The notes under the pieces are model-generated. The model searched no databases, was not told the origin of the DNA, and saw nothing but the letters and a program-made list of their open reading frames with translations. Shown here one piece after another: positions 20,296-61,354 of a DNA stretch of 62,908 nucleotides; position 1 is the first letter of the stretch, and each line of letters begins with the position of its first letter. The translations under genes and the position numbers were made by a program. The DNA comes from Caldifarciminota bacterium (lineage in GTDB: Bacteria > Hydrothermota > UBA3072), in the NCBI GenBank assembly GCA_016930175.1, contig JAFGHJ010000021.1, forward strand, positions 1 through 62,908. Direction: 5' to 3'.

Positions 20296-21210
20296 TTACT
20301 TATTAATACAGATAGTTTTACCTTTTGCTTCTCCTGTTATGGTAGCAACTCTACTTATATAAACGCCAGCAGGTAAATCCAAAGGAATGCTGTAGGTTCC
20401 GGCAGGCTGCATGCCAACAGGTATTTCTAATTGCTTTCGACCGGTTAGATCGAAGACCTGTACGATTACCGGTGCACTGGAGCTAATAGCATATTCCACG
20501 CAATTAATCGAACCCTTGGAAACGCTAACTCCGTTACCCAGTTCCGGTATTTTAATTCCTGACTGTCCGGCGGTGTCGCAGTATTTACTGGGTACTCTTC
20601 CTTTTGAGCTGATAGCGTCAACGTACAGTGTACAAGCTGGCGGATTCACCTCTGGGTTTGTATGTATTTCGAAATCGCTTTGTATGATTCCAGTCGTGAT
20701 CTCTAAATCATCCGAAATACCATCTTTTAATTCATTCCACCTACCAAAATGTAAATTTCGGGGGTAGTAAGTCGTATGTCCATCATGTGCCCAATCCTGG
20801 TTTCTTACGAAGATAAAGATACTATCGATTGGGGCGTTCCAGGGAATATAAACATAATAATACATCGTATCTCTATTTTCTACGCCGATCAAAAAAGATG
20901 TATCCCGGTTCTCAGGCTGAGAACCTATGACCGCGTTCTTAGCCATGATATTCCACCTTGTACCTTCATGAGTCATACACATCTGGATCGAATGAGTACC
21001 ATGCCACCATTTTTTACCCTCAACAATTGAAAAATCTTCCGGTCGGCTGTCTCTATAGCCTGTTATAAAGGGTTCCATACCTTCATAAACTGTTGAGGGA
21101 AGAACACTATCAGCGTACTCATAGGGTTCGAAACTAAACGCATCTTTCGCCTGTGTATTAAGAGATAAGACAAAAATAAGGATGAACAAAAATGCTAATA
21201 ACTTTTTCAA
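20296..21210 (-). CDS. Secreted protein with type IX secretion C-terminal sorting domain
   Basis: The 304-aa product has a signal peptide (MKKLLAFLFILIFVLSLNTQA), a central beta-rich domain of unknown function (residues 25-215) and a C-terminal beta-sandwich ending VQVFDLTGRKQLEIPVG, PAGTYSIPLDLPAGVYISRV and GKTICINK. That ending matches the T9SS sorting domain pattern (V-x-L-x-D-x-x-G-R, AGxY, GxYxxRV) of FCB bacteria. I chose TTG at 21210 because GGAGGT lies just upstream and the signal peptide starts there; the frame is open to 21252. A sigma70 promoter lies at 21328-21356. It converges on the pilin-like gene. Confidence 0.75.
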   Translation of the reverse strand: MKKLLAFLFILIFVLSLNTQAKDAFSFEPYEYADSVLPSTVYEGMEPFITGYRDSRPEDFSIVEGKKWWHGTHSIQMCMTHEGTRWNIMAKNAVIGSQPENRDTSFLIGVENRDTMYYYVYIPWNAPIDSIFIFVRNQDWAHDGHTTYYPRNLHFGRWNELKDGISDDLEITTGIIQSDFEIHTNPEVNPPACTLYVDAISSKGRVPSKYCDTAGQSGIKIPELGNGVSVSKGSINCVEYAISSSAPVIVQVFDLTGRKQLEIPVGMQPAGTYSIPLDLPAGVYISRVATITGEAKGKTICINK

Positions 21211-21327
21211 CTTTACCTCCTTTACGTTTAACCTAAACTTAAATTCGGACACTTTCTTCTAATTTCTTACTCTTTTGGCTTGTTATCGTAACGAAATTAA
21301 TCAACAAGCCTTTACGTCTTATTGTTT

Positions 21328-42192: not shown

Positions 42193-45100
42193 CTATCGCA
42201 CAAATATCAACTTCTTCGTTACCATAAAGTCCTTATTGGTTTGCATTTTGTAAAAGTAGACTGCGTTTGCGACCTTTCTTCCGAATTTATTACTGCCGTC
42301 CCATTTTACTTCATGATAACCTGCTTCAACTTCTTTATCTACGAGAGTGACTACAATTCTTCCTAAACAATCGAAAACATTAATAGAAACCTTAGCAGGT
42401 TCGGGACATCCGTATCTTATTACAGTCTGCCGGCTGAATGGATTTGGATAGTTCTGTTTAACGAAAAAGACTTTCGGAATTTTGGATTCTTCGACTCCGC
42501 TGGCGTCAGCTACATGCAGGTGTGCGGGAATTCTTATCTCCGGATTGCTTGGGTCGTTATTTGATATAATAATGTTTGCATAGTAATTCCCAATTTCTAA
42601 GTCAGCCGCATCGAAGGTAACTTCCAGTCGGGTACTGTCGCCTGATAAAATAGTACCTTTAGTGGAGTCGACTAAAAGCCAGTCAGGAAATTCTTCTGTC
42701 GCGATTAAAATTTCATCCCACCAGGCTTCAGAACCTTCAGTAAAATTGTAAAGCTCAAGACGATCGAAATCTTCCGTAGCTGAGCCGTACCGGAAAGGAA
42801 TCCCGTTCTTTATCAGAACTTCATTGACATGGTAGTCAAAAGTCTTTGATACAAAATTAATATTTTTAAACTCTATATGATACCACGTCCTAGCTGTATA
42901 AGCGTATGTATCATCGCCTCCGACATCTGCATTAACATAAAAATATCCTTCACCTCTTGCGAAAAAGAAGATAAGGTCATCACCCGAACTACTTCGTAAG
43001 ACAAAATAAGCATCATGTGTTGTGGTGGATCCGGAACGAATATAAAAACTGATGTACCCCGGTTGAGTAGCGCCAAGTTCTTGATAAATACCATCATAAT
43101 GCGAGGAAACAGAATTGTATTCATGATAACTATAATCGGTTCTGTTTGCTGCCGTTGTATTTGTGACTTCTTTTATTCCGGAACCTCCGCCATCGAGCCA
43201 GCCGTTGAAGTCTCCGTCTTCAAAGTCGTCTTCAAATATCTTAAAGGAGGCAAAAGCACGTGGAATACTCGCCACGAAATTATTAGGGACACCGTCAGCC
43301 GTTTCCTCTGGCTTTAGAGGTTCTTCCGCGATTAAGAGAGATGAGCGTTTCGATAGTTTTTTATCTTTTATTGATTTCATCAAAAACGAATCCGTTTCCT
43401 CAATTGAAATATCGAAGTTCAGGTTACTCGTGCCTGTGTTGTAGATTGTTAATGAATGTTGAGATATCTCATCTATGAATAAGCTGTCGCTTAAGGAATC
43501 GGTAGAAATTGATATATCAGGAGGTTCCGCACATTCTCCTCGCAGGAATAATGTTACAGTTGGCTCATCCGGGTCGTTACAATAAATCCTTATAACTCTT
43601 ATGATCGTTCCCAGTGAAATGGGTGTAAATGTTATCGGAACTTCTTTAGATTCTCTGGGATTTAAGGTAAAGTTTGTAGTATCAATAATATAATTATAGT
43701 AATCGGTTTCAATATTGCTTATGGTTAGCGTATCGGTTCCTTTATTTGAAATAATTAAAGTATCGATAACAGAAGAACCAGCGAAAGCAATGCCGAAATC
43801 TAAAGTGTCTTCTGAAACATCTATATCAGGTGCACCGGTTACGTGTAGATGAGCAGGAACGATTAGTTCCGGTTCATCCGGATCGTTACTTGCGATAACG
43901 ATGTCCGAAAAGTAATCGCCGCCATAAAGACCGGTAGCATCGAAGGTAACTTCCACGCGTAGACTATCGCCCGCCGGAATAGTATCCGAGGTGGGATCGG
44001 CGGATAGCCAGGAAGGACTCGATAACCACTCAAAAGAATTTATTATCAACAATCTTACGTCAGAAGTTGTATCTACCCCCCAATCGCTTACGGCAGAAGT
44101 AAAAAATGGGAAGCTTATATCAACACGTCGACTATCTCCTACTTCGCCTGCAGCTATAAGCGGAGCTCTATCCAGGAATTCAGCCAACAGGGTTGCGCCA
44201 ACATTAACAGAAGCTCCGGAGTTCAATTTTGATTTTGAAATTACATAGTTTACACCCGCCATAATAGGATGTCCAGCTTCGTAGATGTTACCCATATAAT
44301 ATGAGGTTCCGCCGTTATAGCTATAGGGCGAAATCAGCCAGTAATTTTCTGTATCAAACCGACCCTTAACCATCCAATCTCCGCCGATTCCGTTTGCTGC
44401 AAAGGCGACAAAAACATTGCCTCCCCAGTCGATATAGTCCGCAATTAAATTCCCTATAGCATCTGCATTGTACCAGTAATTCCAACCGAAGACGCCAACT
44501 ACATCGTATATTTGCAGTTCAGATAGTGTGGGAGTAGAGGCATATCCGTTTATTGTCGCTACTTCCGCAAACCGTCCGGAGTTTATCAGATATTGAGCTA
44601 TGTTATCAAGATATTCCTCGCCATCCGATTCAGAACCAAGAATCGCTATTTTTGCTGTTCCTATTGCAGTGGGGGAATCATATAATCTAAAAGCACTTTT
44701 AGATAGATTCCCTGTGGCTATTTTTCCATCGATACTTCTTTGGGATCGTAAGTTACTTCTTACCTCTGCCCTTTGAGTAAATATCTTGCTAGAAGGTACT
44801 GAGGGTGGGGAATCCGCATTTTTCTCCGAAATACTTAAAATCAAATCGCTGAAACCTGTATTGTAAACAGTTAGAGTATGGTTTGATTTCTCTCCGGTGA
44901 ATAAGCTATCGTCTAAGCTTTCCGGCGAAACCGATATATCAGGCGGTTCTAAGCATCTACCTCGTAAATTAATTTCTATCGTTGGTTCGTCAGGATCATC
45001 GCAATCGATTGTCAATTTTCCTCTGATTAATCCTAATGAACTTGGAGTTAAGGTGATCACTACCGCTTGGTTTCCCTCGGGATCCAATGCAAAATTGGTA

Positions 45101-48100
45101 ACATCTACAGAGAAATCGGAATTGTCACTTGAGATGTCATTAACGGTCAGCGAATCTGTCCCAACATTTTCAATGATTAATGTATCAGTTGTAGAATAAC
45201 CAATGAAAACAATACCGTAGTCTAAGGTACTTTCTGAAACAGCTATATCAGGTGTACCGGTTACATGTAAATGTGCCGGGACATTAAGTTCTGTCACATC
45301 CGGGTCGTTACTGGTAACGATGATATCCGCAAAGTAATTTCCCCCATAGAGGTTGGTGGCATCAAAGGTTACTTCTATGAGAGCGCTATCAGCCGGTGAA
45401 ATTGTGCCCGAGATTGGATCAGCCGAAAGCCAGTTCATCGAAAGTAACGTGATTTCATTCTCTATAAGCTCTACAATATCAATTTTCCCATCGTGGTCAT
45501 CATCTGCGTTGAAGTTCATTGACTGGAAAGCATTGAACAGACAGTTCCATTTCTCGTTTAGTACTATCGCCCCGCTGTTAGGGTAGCCTTCGAGATAAGC
45601 CAGTTGAGTTGCGCCCGGAAGAACATCGACAATCTCTGCATCTCTGTTATACTGGTTGTCTGTCCAGTATAAACTATCTATATTATTTGGAACATTGAAA
45701 AGTATGTGTCCGCTGTTAACGGCATAAAAATTTAAAGGCGTTGTAAGATCCGAAATAAAACTGATACCTAAACTTGTAAGTAAAGAATGTGAGGAATAGC
45801 TATAAAGAGACCAATCGGCGTATATTAAAAGTCCGCCGTCTGCCTGATAGTCATCGAGCAAATCAAGTACTTCGTTTGAAGGTGCGTTGCCGTAGGAATT
45901 AACGATAACCAGTTCCCATTGGGTTCCACTGATGAGTTCCGTATGCAGTTCGTCCCAGGAAGTTACCAGTGTTCTGGGTAGGCCAAGGTTATCCAGAGCT
46001 GTGTCATAATAGTACAAACCCGGCCCCCTCTCCATAACGAGAATATGTTGCAATGCTGACGTAGGGATGCTACTTTCATAAATTCTCTTGGAAAATTGCA
46101 CTTCAACTACATCTTGAGTTTCTGAATTTTCCTCGGGTATTGCCTCTTTATTGCTTTCAAAATCGGTGACTTTAAAACTTATATTTTTAGACTTTGTTAT
46201 GGGTAGTAGTTCCTGAAACGATATATCGAAATCCAGATTACTCCCACCCGTATTGTAAATTTTTAAAGTATGGTTAGATATTTCACCCGTATATAAACTA
46301 TCTTCAAGAGAATCGGGAAAAACCGAGATATCCGGTGGTACTAAACCTTCACCTTGAAGAAAAACGGTTAATACAGGTTGGTCTATGTCATTACTCTCTA
46401 TATTAAGATTTCCGGTATAAACAGCTTCGGATACAGGGGCAAAGATAACTCTTACGTCTTTCGTTTCAGATGGCGATACTCTAAAGTTTGTGGTATCAAT
46501 AGAATAATACGTATTATCAACTGTAATATCGTCAACTACCAGTGTATCCCTGCCGAGATTGTTTACCTCTAATATCAGTGTGTCCGGAAAACCTATGTAC
46601 ACCGTGCCGAAATTTAAGGTATCAGCAGAAAGTGATATATTGGGTGTTGATATAGGTATAGAAAAGGAGCTTACCCAGGTAACATCGTTCTGATCTCTCG
46701 TAATAAGTTCAAAATTAATAATGTGGTTTGCAGGACATCCCGATGCTACTTCAAAATTGAAATTCTCTAAACACTCCGAGAGTGAATCAGATAAGATATC
46801 TCCAAATTCATCTATGGAGTCTGTAATGGTAACGTAAGAATCTGTAGTTCGGAGCACCCCTGTGATGTTATACGCGGTATCAAGACCAACATTATGAACC
46901 GTCAAGAACAACTCAATACTCTCTTCGGGATCAACATTGCCATCGCCATTTCCGGTTATCTCCGTCATTCTATACAGGTCAAAAATAACCCATGGACCGG
47001 AAGGAGAGATAACATCTACATTACCTTCATAGGGTATGTAGTTGTTTTTTGTTACCGTGCAGTACATTGTGCCAAGGGAGTTAGACGGGGGCACCAAAGT
47101 CAAGGTAATATTGCCGGAAGCGTCGGTATATCCTCTCTGGTAAACTTCTTCTTCTTTGTATAAGCATACAAAAGCTTCTTCTACGGGCGAACCTACTTCG
47201 GTAACATTCACATTAAAGGTGCTTGTCCCGACAGGTATTACAGGTCCGTGGCTGACCGTAAGCTCTCCCGGGGTATCTGTCCATAGAGGAAGTTCCGGGT
47301 CTCCGAATAGATTTAACTCATAAATACTCCACGGCCAATTTGAGGACCATGTCATTTCCGATACGAATGCATCTTTTGAAAAGGCGTGTGCTACACCCAG
47401 ATGATCATGGTAAAGGTAATTTTCCTTGAATATCTCATGGTAAAAACAGGTGTCTATATGCTCTGAAGGTCCCATGTTAGGAGGATTTCCCCAGCCGTAT
47501 CTTGAATTCATAATGGAATAACCGCCGCCCGAAGCGGGGGTTAAATAGTGTTCCGCAAAGCAGTCACCGTAGGGTACGAGGTCAAGCCCGCCGCACATAC
47601 AGCCTAAAGAATTATGAATACCGAGCAGTCCCTCATTATTGAGGGCATCTAAGTCATCGGAACCTAAATATTCGTCGGCATAATAAATATATATCCCGTA
47701 CTCGTTTCCATGCCCCACAAGATGAGCAAAGCCGAATCCTGATTTGACAGAGTCGACGAAGGCTTCGTGGGTAAGGTTTCCGTCTCTCTCGTACATTCTC
47801 GAAACCTGCCAATCTGAGGGGACGATATCTGCGATTGCTTCCTGTGATAATCTTTCATCGTATATATTCGGCCATAGATAAGCGGCGGGCAGAAGTATCT
47901 TTTTCTGATAACCGGAGGGCGGGTTTTTCTCATAAGAAAGAACTTTATTTACAAAGGTTTCTGCCTGGGCAACAGTCCGCACGGGAGCTCTTCCCACAAA
48001 TACATCCGAATAGAAGTCAACACCATCTGAAGATTCGCCATATATACCATCGCCGTCCGCGTTCCAGTCACCGTCGAGATCGGAAAAATAAAGATCAGAA

Positions 48101-49053
48101 GGAATTGTATCCTCGTCCGGATAATGTCCCACATACGACCTTTTATACCAGACATTTCTCCTTGGAACAATTTCTTCTCCCCATTCATAATCGCATTGTC
48201 CTCCGAGGAGAATCCATATGGTTCCCCAACTTGAATTTGCATCCTTAATAAAATTTCTTACTCTTTCCGCGTTATCCGCGCCCGTATAGTCAGAATATAT
48301 GGAATCGAGGGTTATAACTCTTGCGGGAAATCCTTTTTTAGTTTTCCAATCCGCAAGTTCCTGAAAAGCTGTTTGGAAGGAATCTGCTGTAATTATCACA
48401 TATTCAACTGAATCAGGAGATAAAGCAAGACTGCTTCTTAATCCGGTTATGGGTTCTAACATTCCGATGTCTTCAGGATTGAGTATTAATTTCTCGATTC
48501 TTTCTTTAAATATTTTGTTTTGTTTTTCTGTTTTGGTGATTAACGCCCTTAATTTTTCTTCGTATATAACTCTAAACTTTATTTTAGAATAAAAAATCAA
48601 TTTCTTATCGGCAGGGATGTATTGTATGGGATAAACTAATAAACTTGCGAGTTTATATCCACTCATTGAGCCGGTATGAACGGGTTGAATAACTTTCTCA
48701 GGGTAAGGAGTACTTTTGGCATAGATGTCCTCATCGGGCTTGACAAAAGGGAAAACCATGTCCTTTAAAAATGGTTGTGAGTTTTGAGTAGGATAAACCT
48801 CATATTCGCCGGCGACTTCCTCTTTATCGAAGGAAATTATCTCGACATCAGTAACTTCTGCGCCTTGAGGAATTAACAGCGAAAAGGATGCTTTAGGAAG
48901 ACATGGTGCTCCTAATTCTACTGTAGTTGAAATACAACCTTTAAGCAGAACAAAATCATATCCTTCTATTTTAGCAAAAGAAAGATCGTTTTTGTCGAAA
49001 AATACTTCCTTTTCAAGAATACCTGCAGATGCGATTAATGCAAAAAGTAACAT
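42193..49053 (-). CDS. Giant secreted C25 (gingipain-family) peptidase with triplicated modules and T9SS sorting domain
   Basis: The 2286-aa product has a gingipain-type propeptide (about 1-200) and a C25 catalytic domain (about 215-640) with His in HLVGHGNEYG (near 443) and Cys in NSLGCMCGG (near 485), followed by YGDCFAEHYL as in gingipains. Then a long array: three modules, each with an ASPM/HYDIN-like strand (LDFG...NxG), a PPDISxSxDSLxDSLxxxE linker, a different insert and a VPAHLHVTG Ig-like unit. The end (about 2194-2286) is a T9SS sorting domain (KQNYPNPFSRQTVIRY, WDGSNKFGRKVANAVYFYKM). The listed ATG gives a poor signal peptide; a better start is likely the ATA at 49089, after AAGGAGG. 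Confidence 0.9.
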   Translation of the reverse strand: MLLFALIASAGILEKEVFFDKNDLSFAKIEGYDFVLLKGCISTTVELGAPCLPKASFSLLIPQGAEVTDVEIISFDKEEVAGEYEVYPTQNSQPFLKDMVFPFVKPDEDIYAKSTPYPEKVIQPVHTGSMSGYKLASLLVYPIQYIPADKKLIFYSKIKFRVIYEEKLRALITKTEKQNKIFKERIEKLILNPEDIGMLEPITGLRSSLALSPDSVEYVIITADSFQTAFQELADWKTKKGFPARVITLDSIYSDYTGADNAERVRNFIKDANSSWGTIWILLGGQCDYEWGEEIVPRRNVWYKRSYVGHYPDEDTIPSDLYFSDLDGDWNADGDGIYGESSDGVDFYSDVFVGRAPVRTVAQAETFVNKVLSYEKNPPSGYQKKILLPAAYLWPNIYDERLSQEAIADIVPSDWQVSRMYERDGNLTHEAFVDSVKSGFGFAHLVGHGNEYGIYIYYADEYLGSDDLDALNNEGLLGIHNSLGCMCGGLDLVPYGDCFAEHYLTPASGGGYSIMNSRYGWGNPPNMGPSEHIDTCFYHEIFKENYLYHDHLGVAHAFSKDAFVSEMTWSSNWPWSIYELNLFGDPELPLWTDTPGELTVSHGPVIPVGTSTFNVNVTEVGSPVEEAFVCLYKEEEVYQRGYTDASGNITLTLVPPSNSLGTMYCTVTKNNYIPYEGNVDVISPSGPWVIFDLYRMTEITGNGDGNVDPEESIELFLTVHNVGLDTAYNITGVLRTTDSYVTITDSIDEFGDILSDSLSECLENFNFEVASGCPANHIINFELITRDQNDVTWVSSFSIPISTPNISLSADTLNFGTVYIGFPDTLILEVNNLGRDTLVVDDITVDNTYYSIDTTNFRVSPSETKDVRVIFAPVSEAVYTGNLNIESNDIDQPVLTVFLQGEGLVPPDISVFPDSLEDSLYTGEISNHTLKIYNTGGSNLDFDISFQELLPITKSKNISFKVTDFESNKEAIPEENSETQDVVEVQFSKRIYESSIPTSALQHILVMERGPGLYYYDTALDNLGLPRTLVTSWDELHTELISGTQWELVIVNSYGNAPSNEVLDLLDDYQADGGLLIYADWSLYSYSSHSLLTSLGISFISDLTTPLNFYAVNSGHILFNVPNNIDSLYWTDNQYNRDAEIVDVLPGATQLAYLEGYPNSGAIVLNEKWNCLFNAFQSMNFNADDDHDGKIDIVELIENEITLLSMNWLSADPISGTISPADSALIEVTFDATNLYGGNYFADIIVTSNDPDVTELNVPAHLHVTGTPDIAVSESTLDYGIVFIGYSTTDTLIIENVGTDSLTVNDISSDNSDFSVDVTNFALDPEGNQAVVITLTPSSLGLIRGKLTIDCDDPDEPTIEINLRGRCLEPPDISVSPESLDDSLFTGEKSNHTLTVYNTGFSDLILSISEKNADSPPSVPSSKIFTQRAEVRSNLRSQRSIDGKIATGNLSKSAFRLYDSPTAIGTAKIAILGSESDGEEYLDNIAQYLINSGRFAEVATINGYASTPTLSELQIYDVVGVFGWNYWYNADAIGNLIADYIDWGGNVFVAFAANGIGGDWMVKGRFDTENYWLISPYSYNGGTSYYMGNIYEAGHPIMAGVNYVISKSKLNSGASVNVGATLLAEFLDRAPLIAAGEVGDSRRVDISFPFFTSAVSDWGVDTTSDVRLLIINSFEWLSSPSWLSADPTSDTIPAGDSLRVEVTFDATGLYGGDYFSDIVIASNDPDEPELIVPAHLHVTGAPDIDVSEDTLDFGIAFAGSSVIDTLIISNKGTDTLTISNIETDYYNYIIDTTNFTLNPRESKEVPITFTPISLGTIIRVIRIYCNDPDEPTVTLFLRGECAEPPDISISTDSLSDSLFIDEISQHSLTIYNTGTSNLNFDISIEETDSFLMKSIKDKKLSKRSSLLIAEEPLKPEETADGVPNNFVASIPRAFASFKIFEDDFEDGDFNGWLDGGGSGIKEVTNTTAANRTDYSYHEYNSVSSHYDGIYQELGATQPGYISFYIRSGSTTTHDAYFVLRSSSGDDLIFFFARGEGYFYVNADVGGDDTYAYTARTWYHIEFKNINFVSKTFDYHVNEVLIKNGIPFRYGSATEDFDRLELYNFTEGSEAWWDEILIATEEFPDWLLVDSTKGTILSGDSTRLEVTFDAADLEIGNYYANIIISNNDPSNPEIRIPAHLHVADASGVEESKIPKVFFVKQNYPNPFSRQTVIRYGCPEPAKVSINVFDCLGRIVVTLVDKEVEAGYHEVKWDGSNKFGRKVANAVYFYKMQTNKDFMVTKKLIFVR

Positions 49054-53097: not shown

Positions 53098-53655
53098 TTA
53101 CAGGATTTGTATCATGTAGGTTATCACAGTAGTCGAACCGCTTGTATAAGTCTCATCTCCGTCTAATCTTACTCTATAATCCTGATATAGGTTTGTCCAA
53201 CCTATATCACCACTTCCGCTTGCGATAACTTGAGGGACGGTGCTTAGAGAAGACCATGTTCCCGCTGCGCCGTCGCCGTAGTGAATATCGGTCAGCAGAA
53301 TACCGCAGGCAGGAGACGGATCTCCTGAGCCTGAAATAGTAACTTCCCAATTTCCTGTGGGCCAGAGGATTCCTCTGACCCTATATCTTATTCTCTGGTA
53401 GTATCTGGTATTGGGGCGGCTGGGTTCATAGTACTCCGGAAAAGAAATCGGGGGGAAAGGAGGATTGTTCGCGTTTCGGTCAATATCGGTGAAATCCCAC
53501 GTGATAGTATTGCTTTGTACATTAATCCAGACAATATCGATTATACCCATGGGTAAAGCTAAACTTGCGGTAGTTTTATCGACTCCCACTCCTGTCGAGG
53601 AAATACCTAAAACTATGATGGGTAAAAAGAAAAACAAAAAAGAATATTTTTTCAT
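53098..53655 (-). CDS. Secreted pilin-like protein (family of three)
   Basis: The 185-aa product has a signal peptide (MKKYSFLFFFLPIIVLGISS), then TWDFTDIDRN, PEYYEPSRPNTRYYQRIRYR, SGSGDPSPACGILLTDIHYG, WTNLYQDYRVRLDGDETYTS and the terminal strand VITYMIQIL. The same ordered landmarks occur in the genes at 19612 and 56832. GTGGAGGT precedes the ATG at 53655, which lies just inside the end of the barrel gene. It is last in the minus-strand operon. A fibre-subunit role is inferred from context. Confidence 0.75.
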   Translation of the reverse strand: MKKYSFLFFFLPIIVLGISSTGVGVDKTTASLALPMGIIDIVWINVQSNTITWDFTDIDRNANNPPFPPISFPEYYEPSRPNTRYYQRIRYRVRGILWPTGNWEVTISGSGDPSPACGILLTDIHYGDGAAGTWSSLSTVPQVIASGSGDIGWTNLYQDYRVRLDGDETYTSGSTTVITYMIQIL

Positions 53656-53671
53656 AGTTACCTCCACTATT

Positions 53672-55528
53672 TTAAAATTCTTTCCGTTCAATCTTCTTAA
53701 CCGGTTTTGCTATTCCGAAGATTATTCCTTCTTTTTTCATACCGCCGGTTAGTTGGACGTACAGAAAAAAGTCCTTCGGACTTAAGTCGTATCCCGGGGG
53801 AAAACGGGAAGCCTTGACAGTATAGTCTCCGGGGACGATGTTTTGGATTGAATATTCACCGAAAAAGTTCGTATAAGTATGTTTTGAATAATCACCCCGA
53901 ATTATGCTCACCTTAACATTCGGAACACCTTCTTCGCCATGGTCCCTTTTTAAATTATGATTTTTATCATAATATACAACTCCGGAGATTGAAGAAAGGC
54001 TGAAAACCGGAAAATTCAACGTCTTAAAATCAACAAAACCGGTTTTTATTTTCTTTTTCAGGCTATCCCTCCCCAAAAAAGCGGGCACCCCTTTTATTTC
54101 AAGTTCTACAGAATGTTCGCCCTTGGGAATAGGACCGATTCTGTATTCACCTATTCTGTTTACATCTATTTTTTTCTTCCCGTCTAAAATAATTTTTATA
54201 TCTTTTAAGGGCGGTTCTCCTTTTTGTTTCCTTCCGTCTCCATTCTCATCGTGCCACACTACTCCACTTATCGTGCCGAAACCGACTTTCTCAATGGAGC
54301 CTCTTTTGGTAAGCTCGATAGTATAAACCCTAGATGATTCTGTGGCAGTATTGCCTGAAATACCAAACCTGCTTGAAAAACCTCCTCTAGTATCGAAAGA
54401 AAGAGAGGCATTATAACTTAATTTTTCCTGTTCGGTCATATGTCGCAATCTGAAATCTCCGTGAATGGACGATCCCATTCGGAGAACAGTCCCGAGTGAA
54501 TACTCCCATCCGTAAATTCCCGACTTAGAAACCGCCGCCTCTAAAAGGTTCGAGTGTTGAAGATTGATAATTCCCTCCAATTCAAAGCTTTCATTTCTTC
54601 TGTTGTAATAACTGTTCTGGTATCTGAAACTCAGCCTTCCCTTATTGTAAAGGAAATAATATAAGCTCAGATAATTTCGGTATCCACTGTCTCTATCGCT
54701 GCCCCAATTTAAATTATTGGTGAAATTTACTGAAAGATTAAAAGGAAAGCGGTAAGAAAAACCATCGAGGACTTGATTTTGCAGGGGTCTGTCCAATCGT
54801 CCCGTCTGATAAAAGCCGGAAAAAACATTTAAGCCTATGGGGAACTTATACGATGGGTTTATACCCCAGTTAAACCTTCCATTTGTATATTCGATACCTT
54901 CCCGGGTGACAAAGCCGGAACTGTAAAATCTTAAGAAAGAACGAAGGTAAAGTGAACCCAGACCGTAAAAAAGTTCTTCATTAATAGCAAATCTCGGATT
55001 CTCCACATACCCTAAGTTTATATCGTTCGAAAGCTTTAGATTTCCCAAGTTGAAACTGAATTCGTCTCCCAATAATGTGGATGTTCTGTCTCTATCCCAT
55101 CTTGAATTAAGGGTAAACTTATGGTTGACGATGAAGAGTTCGATTTCTGAGAAAAAGTCATTTCTTTCAAAAGTAGGGAAGACCCGAGCCATCAAATCTC
55201 TCATCTTACCTGCTCTCACATTCAAACTAAAATTGCGGTAAGGGGAATTGTATCCGACTTCAACGCCTCTTAAGTAAGCCATGTCACCCAATACAACATG
55301 ATAAAGTTTATTATTTTCTCCGATTGAAAGGGAATCATAAATATATTGAAATCTCTTTACGCCAAAATCCTCTTTGTACTTCATAAACAGCACATCTGCT
55401 TTCCCGTAGACCCCACTGGTATTTATTAGGTAGTTGGTGACCGCGTACGAGGTTTCATCGTAATTATAAATACTATGATAAACATTTGTATAGTAATGAA
55501 AAGATAGGATAAATAAAATCATTATCAA
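53672..55528 (-). CDS. Outer-membrane beta-barrel protein with SdrD-like Ig domains (usher-like)
   Basis: About 618 aa. After a short hydrophobic start, residues 30-410 are amphipathic beta-strands with aromatic and Asn/Arg alternation (RGVEVGYNSPYRNFSLNVRA, LSLYYFLYNKGRLSFRYQNS), as in a large outer-membrane barrel. Two SdrD-B-like Ig domains follow: GVVWHDENGDGRKQKGEPPL (near 415) and GVVYYDKNHNLKRDHGEEGV (near 514), ending IQNIVPGDYTVKA. Ushers also combine a barrel with C-terminal Ig domains, but the canonical PapC N-terminal domain is not seen. TTG at 55528 abuts the upstream stop; an ATG at 55522 is an alternative. Confidence 0.7.
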   Translation of the reverse strand: MIMILFILSFHYYTNVYHSIYNYDETSYAVTNYLINTSGVYGKADVLFMKYKEDFGVKRFQYIYDSLSIGENNKLYHVVLGDMAYLRGVEVGYNSPYRNFSLNVRAGKMRDLMARVFPTFERNDFFSEIELFIVNHKFTLNSRWDRDRTSTLLGDEFSFNLGNLKLSNDINLGYVENPRFAINEELFYGLGSLYLRSFLRFYSSGFVTREGIEYTNGRFNWGINPSYKFPIGLNVFSGFYQTGRLDRPLQNQVLDGFSYRFPFNLSVNFTNNLNWGSDRDSGYRNYLSLYYFLYNKGRLSFRYQNSYYNRRNESFELEGIINLQHSNLLEAAVSKSGIYGWEYSLGTVLRMGSSIHGDFRLRHMTEQEKLSYNASLSFDTRGGFSSRFGISGNTATESSRVYTIELTKRGSIEKVGFGTISGVVWHDENGDGRKQKGEPPLKDIKIILDGKKKIDVNRIGEYRIGPIPKGEHSVELEIKGVPAFLGRDSLKKKIKTGFVDFKTLNFPVFSLSSISGVVYYDKNHNLKRDHGEEGVPNVKVSIIRGDYSKHTYTNFFGEYSIQNIVPGDYTVKASRFPPGYDLSPKDFFLYVQLTGGMKKEGIIFGIAKPVKKIERKEF

Positions 55529-56248
55529 TTAATCGATTTTTTTAATCCCTTCTAGTATCTTCTCCCCGTCGTAATCTACTCTTGCAACTATCTCATCACC
55601 TTTCTGGATTTTTATGTCGGCAAGTTCTAATTTATACTCTCTTAATCCACCCGGCAGTATAACAGAGCCGGCTACAGAATCTCTGTAAATTTCTTCAGAA
55701 CCTCTCATAAGCCAGTATTTTATGGATGGTCTTAACCATGTATTGCACTTATTCTCCACTTCTAAATTTAAGCCTCCGTCTTTCCCCAGCTTCATTCCCT
55801 CTATCTCTGCCTCTTTGAAGGTTGTTCCCGCTACCTCCAAATATGTAGATATCCCTACCCTCCCAGCCAGCTTTACCAGTGGGGTCCATTCTTCTTGCTC
55901 CGGCGGGTTACCTTCGAAAAGTATTACACTCCAGTATCCGCCTGCACTCTCTAGGGGTATATCAAAGGTGATTCTTACATCTTTCGTTTCGCCCGGACCA
56001 AGAATAAACTCCGCAGGATTGATTGTTATCCATTTGGAACATGAACCGTCTAAAGTACCTGCATCATGGTATTGTATATTTCCTCCCTCGTTCAGATCCC
56101 AATCTTTACTGTAAACCATAACGATTACTTCATTATAAGCGTCTCCATTTTTTACTGATAGTTCCCTTGTTACTACTCCTGGATGTGAACTAACCTCTAA
56201 CCGTAAGGGAGAAACGAGTAATGATACCGATATTAATAAATTTAACAT
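55529..56248 (-). CDS. Periplasmic two-Ig-domain chaperone-like protein
   Basis: The 239-aa product has a signal peptide (MLNLLISVSLLVSPLRLEV) and two Ig-like domains. The first has WITINPAEFILGPGETKDVR and DIPLESAGGYWSVILFEG, the pattern of PapD-type pilus chaperones and related WxL-binding proteins. The joining strand RVGISTYLEVAGT and a second domain (150-239) follow. The ATG at 56248 has AAGGAGG nine bases upstream and gives a clean signal peptide; the frame is open to 56323. A fimbrial chaperone role is inferred from fold and its barrel neighbour. Confidence 0.7.
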   Translation of the reverse strand: MLNLLISVSLLVSPLRLEVSSHPGVVTRELSVKNGDAYNEVIVMVYSKDWDLNEGGNIQYHDAGTLDGSCSKWITINPAEFILGPGETKDVRITFDIPLESAGGYWSVILFEGNPPEQEEWTPLVKLAGRVGISTYLEVAGTTFKEAEIEGMKLGKDGGLNLEVENKCNTWLRPSIKYWLMRGSEEIYRDSVAGSVILPGGLREYKLELADIKIQKGDEIVARVDYDGEKILEGIKKID

Positions 56249-56262
56249 TTGAAAAATCCTCC

Positions 56263-56703
56263 TTACTTTTTCATTAAAGTGAAATCTATATTTGTTAGGA
56301 AATCTCCGGCGCGATCCTCCCACTTCAAATCGAATCTCAAATCTATCAAGAAAGATTTTCCGTTCTCCTGTGTGGCGTTTCCTTCTAAAATCTTATCTTC
56401 TTCAATTCCGAAAGGGACCCATTCTCCGCCTTCGATTCTCCAGGCGAACCTATTAATAGGTATAATGCTTCCCTCTACAGATAAGAAATCTTCTTTTGCC
56501 GAACAGAGTAAAACCCAGTCGGTATTTGCGTGTATCGTTCCCCGGATGATTCCCGGTAATTCAATTGGAGAGGAATCGGCGTCAAGAAATCCAATATCTA
56601 TTCTTTTAGCCCTGATATCTATAGAAAGGACTTCCTGATTGAAAAAACCAACTTGCACGGAGGCATTCTGATCGGCAATTAAGAAAAGTAAAACCCATAT
56701 CAT
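56263..56703 (-). CDS. Small secreted protein, probable minor subunit
   Basis: The 146-aa product has a short hydrophobic leader (MIWVLLFLIADQNASV) and a beta-rich body: GIIRGTIHANTDWVLLCSAK, IPINRFAWRIEGGEWVPFG and SFLIDLRFDLKWEDRAGDFL, ending FTLMKK. The order of strands is reminiscent of pilin subunits, but I recognise no family. AAGGAGGT precedes the ATG; a promoter lies at 56724-56752. First gene after the terminator. Confidence 0.6.
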   Translation of the reverse strand: MIWVLLFLIADQNASVQVGFFNQEVLSIDIRAKRIDIGFLDADSSPIELPGIIRGTIHANTDWVLLCSAKEDFLSVEGSIIPINRFAWRIEGGEWVPFGIEEDKILEGNATQENGKSFLIDLRFDLKWEDRAGDFLTNIDFTLMKK

Positions 56704-56723
56704 TTTGAACCTCCTTTTTTGTA

Positions 56724-56752
56724 AATATAGAAATAAGACGATTCATTGTCAA
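56724..56752 (-). promoter_or_regulatory. Sigma70-type promoter for the chaperone-barrel operon
   Basis: Minus-strand TTGACA (56747-56752), 17-nt spacer, TATATT (56724-56729). With the terminator behind it, this separates the operon (56703 to 53098) from the upstream pilin-like gene. Confidence 0.7.
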
Positions 56753-56764
56753 GCCATTGTAAGG

Positions 56765-56803
56765 AAAGAGAAAGGGCGCTCTTGGAGCGCCCCCTTTCTC
56801 TTT
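56765..56803 (-). terminator. Strong hairpin terminator
   Basis: A 17-bp stem with a 2-nt bulge: GGGCGCTC/GAGCGCCC flanked by AAAGAGAAA/TTTCTCTTT, loop of three, followed on the minus strand by T-rich sequence. It lies just after the gene at 56832-57386. Confidence 0.85.
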
Positions 56804-56831
56804 AGCAGAACGTCGTTCTAAGTGGTTCTCA

Positions 56832-57386
56832 TTATAAGGTCTGGATGGTGTAGGTTATTGTGCAGTAAGAATCAGTAGTATAAGTCTCATCGCCTGTTAT
56901 GTTAACCTGATAATCTTGATACATCGTTGCCCATCCACCTGTATTTGCCGAGCCGGTTTGTATTGCAGCATCAGTTGTGGTGAAAGCCATCCATCCACTT
57001 GTTAAGTTTCCTGCACCATCGTCCTCTGCATATTCTATATCTCCAAGAAGAATTCCGCACGCGGGTGCCGGATCTGCATCGCCCGCGACTGTAACTTGCC
57101 AGCTTGAACTGTTTCCAAAGCCCCAGACCAGATAATCGATTGTTTGATGAGGACGGGCAGCAGGAGTGGTAGGTTCATAGTACTCAGGCAGAGAAAAAGG
57201 ATCAGGCGGGAAGCCAGCCATAGTAGAAAAGTCCCATTCTACGGGATCTGTACTAATTTCAATGCCAACAATCTCAGGTATTACAAAATGAAATTCTGCC
57301 GCTTCGCTGGCATCACCATCTGTATCAACTTCACCAAAAACAAAAACAGGTAAAACTAAAAGTGTTATAAATAAAAGTTTGCGCAT
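56832..57386 (-). CDS. Secreted pilin-like protein, probable major subunit
   Basis: The 184-aa product has a signal peptide (MRKLLFITLLVLPVFVFGEV), then VEWDFSTMAG, LPEYYEPTTPAARPHQTIDY, AGDADPAPACGILLGDIEYA, GGWATMYQDYQVNITGDETY and ends CTITYTIQTL. It is the closest relative, by eye, of the gene at 19612. It has its own strong terminator and a leader conserved with that gene, so it may be the abundant subunit. AAAGGAGGTTT precedes the ATG. Confidence 0.75.
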   Translation of the reverse strand: MRKLLFITLLVLPVFVFGEVDTDGDASEAAEFHFVIPEIVGIEISTDPVEWDFSTMAGFPPDPFSLPEYYEPTTPAARPHQTIDYLVWGFGNSSSWQVTVAGDADPAPACGILLGDIEYAEDDGAGNLTSGWMAFTTTDAAIQTGSANTGGWATMYQDYQVNITGDETYTTDSYCTITYTIQTL

Positions 57387-59545: not shown

Positions 59546-61354
59546 TTAGTAAAAGATTATATAATAAGTTATAAAAAGACCTAAGAAAACGAAGAAGAAG
59601 CAAGTTCCCAGCTTTATTAATTTGACCTTGTCTTTCCAGAATTTATTTATAACAGAAGAACGCATGCCTTTGTACGTGGCAACAAACACAAGTAAGAGTG
59701 GAATAATAAACGCAATATTGTAGAAAATTAAATATAATATAGCTCTGATACGAAGTTCCGGGACCCTGCTCACGAAGATCAGTGTGGGCAGATAAATCTG
59801 ACCGGTACAAATAAATTCACTTACCGAGATGAAGAAACCGCTTACAGTTGCCGCGATAAATAAATTTTTCTTGCCCATTTTTTCTCTTATTACCGAATGA
59901 ATTTTTTTCTTGATAAATCTGGGAAGCTGCAGTTTAACCTCTCCTACTTCGTTTCTTTTTAACTTGATGTAATCATAAAAAGAAAGAACCCCAAACGATA
60001 TAGAAAGTAACGCCACGACCCCGAGAATAATCTTGCCTATAATATTTGTTATTTTTAAAATACCGACGAATTTAATAAGACCCAGTCCGATTAAAAAATA
60101 TACAAGGAATACCACAGCACTGTAAGTAATTCCAATTAATAGTGTTTCCTCTTCTTTTTTCCCTACTGTAGATAGGAAAGCTATAAGAAAAATTATTGTT
60201 GCAAAAGCACATGGGTTAACACCGTCTATTAAACCCGCCAATAAAATGGTGAAGACACCCATATTCTTAAATCTTTCTTTTATGCTTTCTTCTGATTTGT
60301 CTTTCAACTCGAAGATTTTCGTCCAGGGTATTTCAGAGCCTTTGTCTTTGTATTCAAGAATAAATTCCTTCAGGGGCTTCTCCACCAGATCTTCTCCGGT
60401 TGCGTAATCCTTTTCTATAAAAAGCATAGGAGTGGTTAATCTCTTATTCTCCGGAACATTAAAGACTTCGCAGAATGCTTCATTTATTTTTTTGTTTTCT
60501 CTGCTATCCATATCGTATTTTGTAATATCTAAATTCGAATAGATTCTCTCTAAGAAGGAAATCTCGTAATTTATTCTTTCGCAAACTCTGCATTTGTTAT
60601 CGTAGAAATAAGCGGCTTCTATTCTTTCTCCCGAACCAAGAGAGGAAGAGTTCCGGCTTTTTAGTTCCGGGAAATCACATCCCGAGTCTTTATATTCTGC
60701 AATTCGCACTTCGAGCCATTTTCTTATCTCGCCTGCGCCCCCGAGAATATAATTGCCTATGACTATAATCGGTATTTCATTATTTTTATCCTGATATTCT
60801 TCTTCTATTGAAACCAAATGCTCGTAGTTGGCAGGATCAGATATTTCAAAAGATTTTATTATCAAATTATATTTTTCTATAAGAGGAGGTAGTATTTTTT
60901 CCTCAATAAAGGAACAGTCTTCACAGTCTTTCGAATAGAAGAGGCAGATCCGTATAGGAGGAGTAGCTACCGGAGGTTTTATATTTGCTTTTAATGTGAG
61001 TTGAACCTTACTGTTTTCGGGGTCGTTCGTATGGATATATATGGTTTCGGTAACGCCGCCAATATAATTTTTAGAGTTAAAGGTAACCCGTATTTTTCCG
61101 GTACCGCGGGGAGGAACTAATCTGTTGGAGATATCCAGTTTTCCGCTAGCGCAGCCACAGGAAGACCTGACTTCGTTTACTTTCAAATCCTCATTGCCGA
61201 CATTTCTGAAAAGGAAATCCATCGTTCTACTTTCATTTTGTTCCATTGTCCCGAAATTAAGCAACTTGCTTTTAAACTGTATACGAGACTGGGCGCATAG
61301 GCTCGATAATATTAGATAAAAGATTATAACTTTTCCTCTGACCCCATTAATCAT
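59546..61354 (-). CDS. DUF1573 - thioredoxin-like x2 - CcdA/DsbD-type membrane fusion protein
   Basis: The 602-aa protein has a signal peptide, a DUF1573 Ig-like domain (about 28-125; FGTMEQNESRTMDFLFRNVG, SSCGCASG), two thioredoxin-like domains with CxxC sites (C144/C147 and C255/C258) and a C-terminal membrane domain (about 365-602, six helices) with GVNPCAFATIIFL (C382) and a second cysteine at C516 (FICTGQ). Those two match the redox cysteines of CcdA/DsbD membrane domains. The fusion should pass electrons from the cytoplasm to extracytoplasmic proteins. The ATG lies 7 nt below a -10 box with no ribosome-binding site. Confidence 0.82.
   Translation of the reverse strand: MINGVRGKVIIFYLILSSLCAQSRIQFKSKLLNFGTMEQNESRTMDFLFRNVGNEDLKVNEVRSSCGCASGKLDISNRLVPPRGTGKIRVTFNSKNYIGGVTETIYIHTNDPENSKVQLTLKANIKPPVATPPIRICLFYSKDCEDCSFIEEKILPPLIEKYNLIIKSFEISDPANYEHLVSIEEEYQDKNNEIPIIVIGNYILGGAGEIRKWLEVRIAEYKDSGCDFPELKSRNSSSLGSGERIEAAYFYDNKCRVCERINYEISFLERIYSNLDITKYDMDSRENKKINEAFCEVFNVPENKRLTTPMLFIEKDYATGEDLVEKPLKEFILEYKDKGSEIPWTKIFELKDKSEESIKERFKNMGVFTILLAGLIDGVNPCAFATIIFLIAFLSTVGKKEEETLLIGITYSAVVFLVYFLIGLGLIKFVGILKITNIIGKIILGVVALLSISFGVLSFYDYIKLKRNEVGEVKLQLPRFIKKKIHSVIREKMGKKNLFIAATVSGFFISVSEFICTGQIYLPTLIFVSRVPELRIRAILYLIFYNIAFIIPLLLVFVATYKGMRSSVINKFWKDKVKLIKLGTCFFFVFLGLFITYYIIFY

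Follow-up and report, generated by a model that had tools for sequence, protein, structure and literature searches.

The closest described systems to the locus analyzed here are the chaperone-usher (CU) pathway (FimC-FimD; CfaA and EcpB-EcpC in the alternative clade; CsuC-CsuD in the archaic clade) and the WxL/WxLIP (DUF916-DUF3324) clusters of low-GC Gram-positive bacteria. Ushers such as FimD and PapC carry a plug between strands 6 and 7 of the barrel. In published AF2 models of the WxL-interacting protein WxLIP, a hairpin is disordered when the protein stands alone, orders into a gap in WxL and completes the WxL sandwich; the paper makes no mention of chaperones, donor strands or ushers (PMC10599100). 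The locus in question lies on contig JAFGHJ010000021.1 of a Caldifarciminota bacterium, which was analyzed over 62,908 nucleotides (the window). It is a cassette of five co-directional minus-strand genes at 53098-57386, in the order pilA, small, chaperone, barrel and pilB, and we put the probability that it builds a surface fiber by a chaperone-usher-like route at roughly 60%.

The cassette resembles the CU pathway in its gene set and gene order, in its PapD-like chaperone with two immunoglobulin (Ig) domains, in its large outer-membrane barrel, which as modeled bears two beta-sandwich domains at its C-terminal end, and in its small secreted subunits that end after the last strand. It differs in that the barrel lacks the usher family PF00577, the usher N-terminal domain (NTD) and the plug, the subunits are unrelated by profile to FimA-type pilins, and the chaperone is nearer to WxLIP and lacks the classical Lys112 anchor. 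With the WxL/WxLIP clusters the cassette shares a chaperone that is homologous over both domains by profile, an invariant W-x-L in the small subunit with a C-terminal strand resembling the second motif, a subunit gene that adjoins a WxLIP-like gene, and a possible lending of strands of the kind predicted for WxLIP with WxL (PMC10599100). In contrast to those clusters, the host is a diderm, the chaperone lacks a membrane helix at its C-terminus, the cassette shows an outer-membrane barrel but no LPXTG protein, and the second motif is F-x-L with no match to PF13731. The two C-terminal domains of the barrel are similar to SdrD/MSCRAMM B and carboxypeptidase-regulatory-like domains, but here they come after a membrane barrel instead of forming part of an adhesin anchored in the cell wall. 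The lack of the usher family, NTD and plug kept the cassette from being classed with the CU systems, and the lack of the WxL family and the membrane helix kept it from being classed with the WxL clusters; it possibly sits between CU pili and WxL systems and bridges them. A literature search, mainly of open-access papers, found no description of the five-gene cassette, which is weak evidence of absence.

The five-gene cassette and its distribution

All five open reading frames are present at the place, on the strand and in the order first annotated (Table 1). The starts were corrected to ATG at 57386 for pilA, 56703 for small, 56248 for the chaperone and 53655 for pilB; the barrel begins at TTG 55528 or ATG 55522, and an alternative chaperone start at GTG 56323 would overlap the small gene. 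The terminator that had been placed after pilA is real by sequence. The new promoter claimed behind it matches the consensus at 11/12 positions, but promoter-like matches overall were near the shuffled number (18 observed versus 13.5 in shuffled sequence). Because a terminator and then a promoter-like site follow pilA, this gene could be produced in excess over the others, and it is probably the major subunit. The claim that all of the proteins have signal peptides held in part. Judged by eye, the three pilins (pilA, pilB and the stand-alone pilC) carry canonical signal peptides, while the small protein, chaperone and barrel of the window have only short hydrophobic N-termini; orthologs of these three, such as those at locus L020, carry canonical ones.

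Genome counts were made in a sample of 147 WOR-3 (Stahlbacteria) genomes, in which the chaperone was found in 32 (at E<=1e-20), the barrel in 29 and the pilin in 31. The co-occurrence that the initial annotation had offered as a check was observed, with chaperone and pilin present in 29 of the 29 barrel-bearing genomes (Fisher p ~1e-27, which ignores relatedness and is inflated by kinship, the genomes not being independent). The order subunit(s)-chaperone-barrel is conserved in the loci of relatives, the chaperone gene is immediately upstream of the barrel in 25 loci, and 4-bp overlaps are common. The cassette is the conserved unit, since the flanking genes differ between families. A contig scan with a profile of three close chaperone rows gave Candidatus Stahlbacteria E29_bin14 as the closest named relative, which places the window, a hydrothermal genome, in the WOR-3 phylum.

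Outside WOR-3, members of this chaperone family are paired with larger barrels, both in Deinococcota and in further lineages. There the chaperone gene adjoins small beta proteins and barrels that end in the same domain type (loci L085-L104, with L116 and L117 on Deinococcus plasmids). The subunit-chaperone-barrel neighborhoods are alike, but these barrels are ~800-1070 aa long and mostly have 130-400 extra residues before the barrel, the exception being L085, in which the front segment is as short as in WOR-3 barrels. In Deinococcus the cassette genes are annotated only as hypothetical or as carboxypeptidase-like regulatory protein.

Variations on the cassette were also seen. Another contig of the same genome (L016, G000:C17:5034-6270) carries a second small and chaperone pair, 58% and 67% identical, with no adjacent barrel; the next downstream gene encodes a lipoprotein-like 632-aa protein. 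Proteins of ~512-601 aa with two tandem chaperone-like copies were found at L030 38-1573 and as matches in G114, G115, G119, G120 and G123, genomes that have no cassette barrel match. Among divergent WOR-3 loci, L079 (G076) has a 1299-aa barrel-like protein and then a second chaperone, and L075 (G137) has a two-gene split following the chaperone. In one WOR-3 family (L020, L022, L024, L026 and L076) the cassette always lies, by eye, between response-regulator-like and histidine-kinase-like genes, which suggests two-component control of the cassette in that family. At L017 3665-4078, immediately upstream of the cassette of the closest member of the family, lies a type IV pilin-like gene (GFTLIELMIIIVIIGILAA).

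Table 1. Positions and properties of the cassette genes, associated signals and the unlinked pilin gene.
Feature	Position	Strand	Remarks
pilA, secreted pilin-like subunit, 184 aa	56832..57386	-	First gene, own terminator; family hidden Markov model (HMM) 2.3e-64
Intrinsic terminator hairpin after pilA	56771..56795	-	Fold -28.5 kcal/mol, z -3.3
Promoter-like site TTGACA-17-TATATT	56724..56752	-	Between terminator and small gene; consensus match only
Small subunit, 146 aa, divergent pilin paralog	56263..56703	-	Invariant W-x-L (W63, L65); C-terminal F-x-L strand
Two-Ig PapD/WxLIP-like periplasmic chaperone, 239 aa	55529..56248	-	Fold and profile comparisons
Usher-like outer-membrane barrel	53672..55528	-	~25 strands (residues 30-411); two SdrD/transthyretin-like C-terminal domains (~418-610); conserved K-x-F C-terminus
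pilB, second cassette pilin paralog, 185 aa	53098..53655	-	Family HMM and own-genome search
pilC, stand-alone third pilin paralog, 179 aa	19612..20151	+	48% identity to pilA; 33 kb from cassette

The chaperone and the subunits

The fold search was performed with a model of the chaperone from the relative at L020, not of the window protein, and this model had a pLDDT >90 over most of the chain. The highest similarity was to WxLIP bound to WxL (9i25; Z 17.1), followed by CfaA, FimC, Caf1M, CsuC and PapD, which matched over both domains at Z 12-14; the best CU match was CfaA of the alternative clade (Z 14.0). Profile comparisons, controlled with reversed profiles and 40 shuffled ones, gave a match of 96.8% to WxLIP (E 2.9e-10, 232 columns) and of 91% to the E. 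coli K-12 CU chaperones (E 1.1e-6; controls <=1.8%), the latter rising to 95.6% (E 1.1e-8) when EcpB was added to the set. WxLIP itself matched the same CU set at 0.3-0.7%. The two-Ig, PapD-like description of this protein is thus supported by fold and by profile, while PapD is displaced as its nearest relative by WxLIP, the Gram-positive WxL-interacting protein, on both measures. The chaperone is a bridge that matches both groups.

When the domains were compared separately, the first (D1) matched both WxLIP and the CU chaperones (93%). It also matched the ASH/HYDIN-like repeats of a neighboring C25-type protein (~75%), so that D1 alone is not specific for either group and it is the two-domain match that discriminates. 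PapD_N was above cut-off in the cassette chaperone of G071 and PF06030 (WxLIP_PGBD) in two cassette chaperone orthologs; the window protein gave only sub-threshold matches in Pfam and NCBIfam. The best PDB sequence match of the chaperone was EfmWxLIP1 (E 0.016), a phmmer search of PDB with the single window chaperone returned nothing useful, and a viral structure search gave generic Ig matches only. The position aligned with FimC Arg8 is basic (K/R) in 29 of the 36 members. No C-terminal transmembrane helix of the WxLIP type was found; the protein ends in ILEGIKKID, and the alignment shows no hydrophobic tail.

A search of the organism's own genome with pilA recovered two further pilins, pilB and pilC, the latter absent from the initial annotation. 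That annotation had listed the small gene as encoding a second small secreted beta protein. The gene is confirmed, but its product is not a separate kind of protein; it is a divergent pilin paralog with WxL-like motifs. The full-length profile match between the small protein and the pilins was 98.3% (E 2.2e-14; reversed and shuffled controls <=0.4%), and by this comparison they are one subunit family. The C-terminal strand of the small protein reads G-x-Y-x-T-x-L-x-F-x-L. Its profile matched six WxL-cluster proteins of lactic-acid bacteria at 54% (E 1.3e-4; controls <=0.4%), from the first motif to the last. The WxL domain (PF13731) has two W-x-L motifs, of which the first is invariant here and the second is F-x-L, and no HMM match to PF13731 was obtained for the subunits in the 41 genomes tested. 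The small subunit is therefore probably related to WxL, as judged from motifs and profiles, but only distantly. As first noted, the subunits match no pilin family; neither Pfam nor NCBIfam gave a match for any of them, and the small and pilin profiles gave only chance matches in PDB. Assignment of the pilins to the FimA type was rejected (profile match 2%). The subunit chains stop directly after the last strand.

The outer-membrane barrel

For the barrel of the window, AF2 with 28 sequences gave a model with a pLDDT of 79 and a pTM of 0.53. It shows the expected large barrel, with ~25 strands against the 24 of the usher barrel, and at its C-terminal end two beta-sandwich domains arranged as in FimD. 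In comparison with known structures by Foldseek, FimD was just below SdrD (8e-13), and PapC was at 2.7e-8. VIA aligned the model with the FimD translocation domain at Z 15.4 (305 residues, 5.8 A), and its longer rows ran along FimD 161-833, which comprises the barrel and both C-terminal domains, with a large root-mean-square deviation.

The sole Pfam and NCBIfam matches of the barrel lie in its C-terminal domains, to PF17210 (SdrD_B; E 3e-17) and to carboxypeptidase-regulatory domains. These domains are 31% identical to SdrD B over 101 residues, and phmmer with the single window barrel found only SdrD in PDB. In profile comparison they matched the two C-terminal domains of ushers (CTD1-CTD2), EcpC included, at 74.9% (E 2.6e-5; reversed control 0.7%). 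Within the K-x-F terminus, Phe618 is invariant in the alignment. A conserved basic tail, K-P-(I/V)-(R/K)-K-K-x-F, ends most of the barrels (window 53672-53700 and orthologs).

Fiber assembly and its alternatives

On the proposed route, the subunits would reach the periplasm via their signal peptides; they would comprise pilA, pilB and probably pilC, together with the small WxL-like protein, which would serve as a minor subunit or at the tip. In a PapD-like manner, the chaperone would use the F1-G1 hairpin of Ig domain 1 to lend each subunit a strand, a mechanism proposed here because the published AF2 models of WxLIP with WxL show such a hairpin (PMC10599100). The barrel would be a minimal usher without NTD or plug, whose two C-terminal domains would receive the chaperone-subunit complexes. 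It would then thread the growing chain outward as donor-strand complementation gave way to exchange, leaving the subunits of the fiber joined by their N-terminal donor strands. This role, which the initial annotation drew from architecture, is favored by the architecture, the chaperone and the co-occurrence; against it stand the closeness of the chaperone to WxLIP, the lack of a plug and the fact that strand donation is something that we infer.

A number of observations weigh against fiber assembly by this route. The second chaperone domain matches WxLIP at 67% and the CU chaperones at 2.6%. The position of FimC Lys112, the classical second anchor, is neither basic nor conserved in the family, although archaic CU chaperones likewise lack the classical pair (PMC4654587). 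In three relatives the small, pilin and chaperone genes share one reading frame, and the read-through translation was modeled as one chain in which each domain is well folded (pTM 0.46). The tip of the F1-G1 hairpin (463-475) is disordered in this model and is not inserted in the pilin, so that it neither supports nor contradicts the donor-strand mechanism of the initial annotation; the subunits fold confidently, and their fold may be self-sufficient. In the barrel model the pTM is low, confidence is weak at residues 320-400, and the VIA Z score to FimD is tied with that to porins of the OprD type. Usher family PF00577 was over cut-off in 0 of the 147 WOR-3 genomes, with a positive E. coli control, and had no match in barrel members scanned one by one. 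The model has no usher NTD, as had been stated from the start, since only 29 residues with a signal-like segment precede the first strand. It also has no plug, a finding that the initial annotation would have taken to refute the fiber role; strands 6 and 7 are connected by a loop of 13-14 residues, adjoined by a conserved Asn, and no insert occurs elsewhere. An assignment of the barrel as an usher by sequence was rejected, as its scores against classical ushers were no higher than the reversed control, and the profile similarity is limited to the C-terminal domains, a fold common to SdrD. The first cultured WOR-3 isolate, sy37, speaks for a fiber in that it is a diderm, having both an inner and an outer membrane, and bears visible pili (PMC12285271), but these could be type IV pili rather than products of the cassette.

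Several of these points would suit a WxL complex of diderms, equivalent to that of Gram-positive bacteria, in which the chaperone-like protein is a permanent structural partner holding WxL-like domain proteins at the envelope, the barrel with its SdrD-type domains is their outer-membrane anchor, and no fiber is made. The fold and two-domain profile matches to WxLIP, the PF06030 hits in two cassette chaperones, the invariant W-x-L with its profile match to WxL-cluster proteins, and the placement in Gram-positive clusters of the gene for a small WxL protein directly before that for WxLIP, as in the cassette, all speak for it. We nevertheless regard it as unlikely, because the chaperone lacks the transmembrane helix of WxLIP (PMC10599100), PF13731 is unmatched in the 41 genomes tested, a 25-strand barrel exceeds what an anchor needs, and several pilin paralogs, one with its own terminator, better suit a polymer. 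The match gains from EcpC and EcpB, and CfaA as the best CU fold match, would fit a true but very divergent CU system of the archaic or alternative clade whose usher has lost NTD and plug. With PF00577 absent, sequence homology missing at the level of the barrel, neither plug nor NTD present, subunits unlike FimA-type pilins and a chaperone nearer to WxLIP, such an origin appears quite improbable. Lastly, the equal VIA scores for OprD-type porins and FimD would be expected if the barrel had nothing to do with the subunits, being a porin or a pore for secretion, and if the chaperone protected ordinary secreted beta-proteins. The strict co-occurrence and adjacency of chaperone, pilin and barrel, the two usher-like C-terminal domains and a strand count well beyond that of porins make this highly improbable.

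Other genes in the window include a large C25-protease-like multidomain protein (42193-49053) and a second secreted protein (20296-21252), each with a T9SS-like sorting domain at its end by eye. In the product of 59546-61354, a possible thiol redox carrier, a DUF1573 Ig domain is fused to thioredoxin-like segments and to a membrane domain with multiple helices. A plasmid record labeled Klebsiella pneumoniae (CP069367.1, 101821-102474) contains a gene with 72% identity to WxLIP of E. faecium, possibly through contamination or mis-assembly.

A wider and more tentative proposal may also be made, that an unrecognized donor-strand assembly pathway exists across WOR-3, Deinococcota and other diderms, in which a WxLIP/PapD-like chaperone and an usher without plug or NTD export WxL-like subunits, and that CU pili and WxL complexes share a donor-strand ancestor. 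In the comparisons made here, CU chaperones failed to detect WxLIP and vice versa (0.3-0.7%), whereas the present family has matches to each of them, which makes a common origin of strand lending testable. Such an origin would join the strand-lending assembly of Gram-negative pili with that of Gram-positive WxL complexes, and a working usher without plug or NTD would, if true, help to define the minimum required for fiber passage across the outer membrane. Because the cassette is both unannotated and widespread, the surface fibers of several little-studied phyla may be overlooked.

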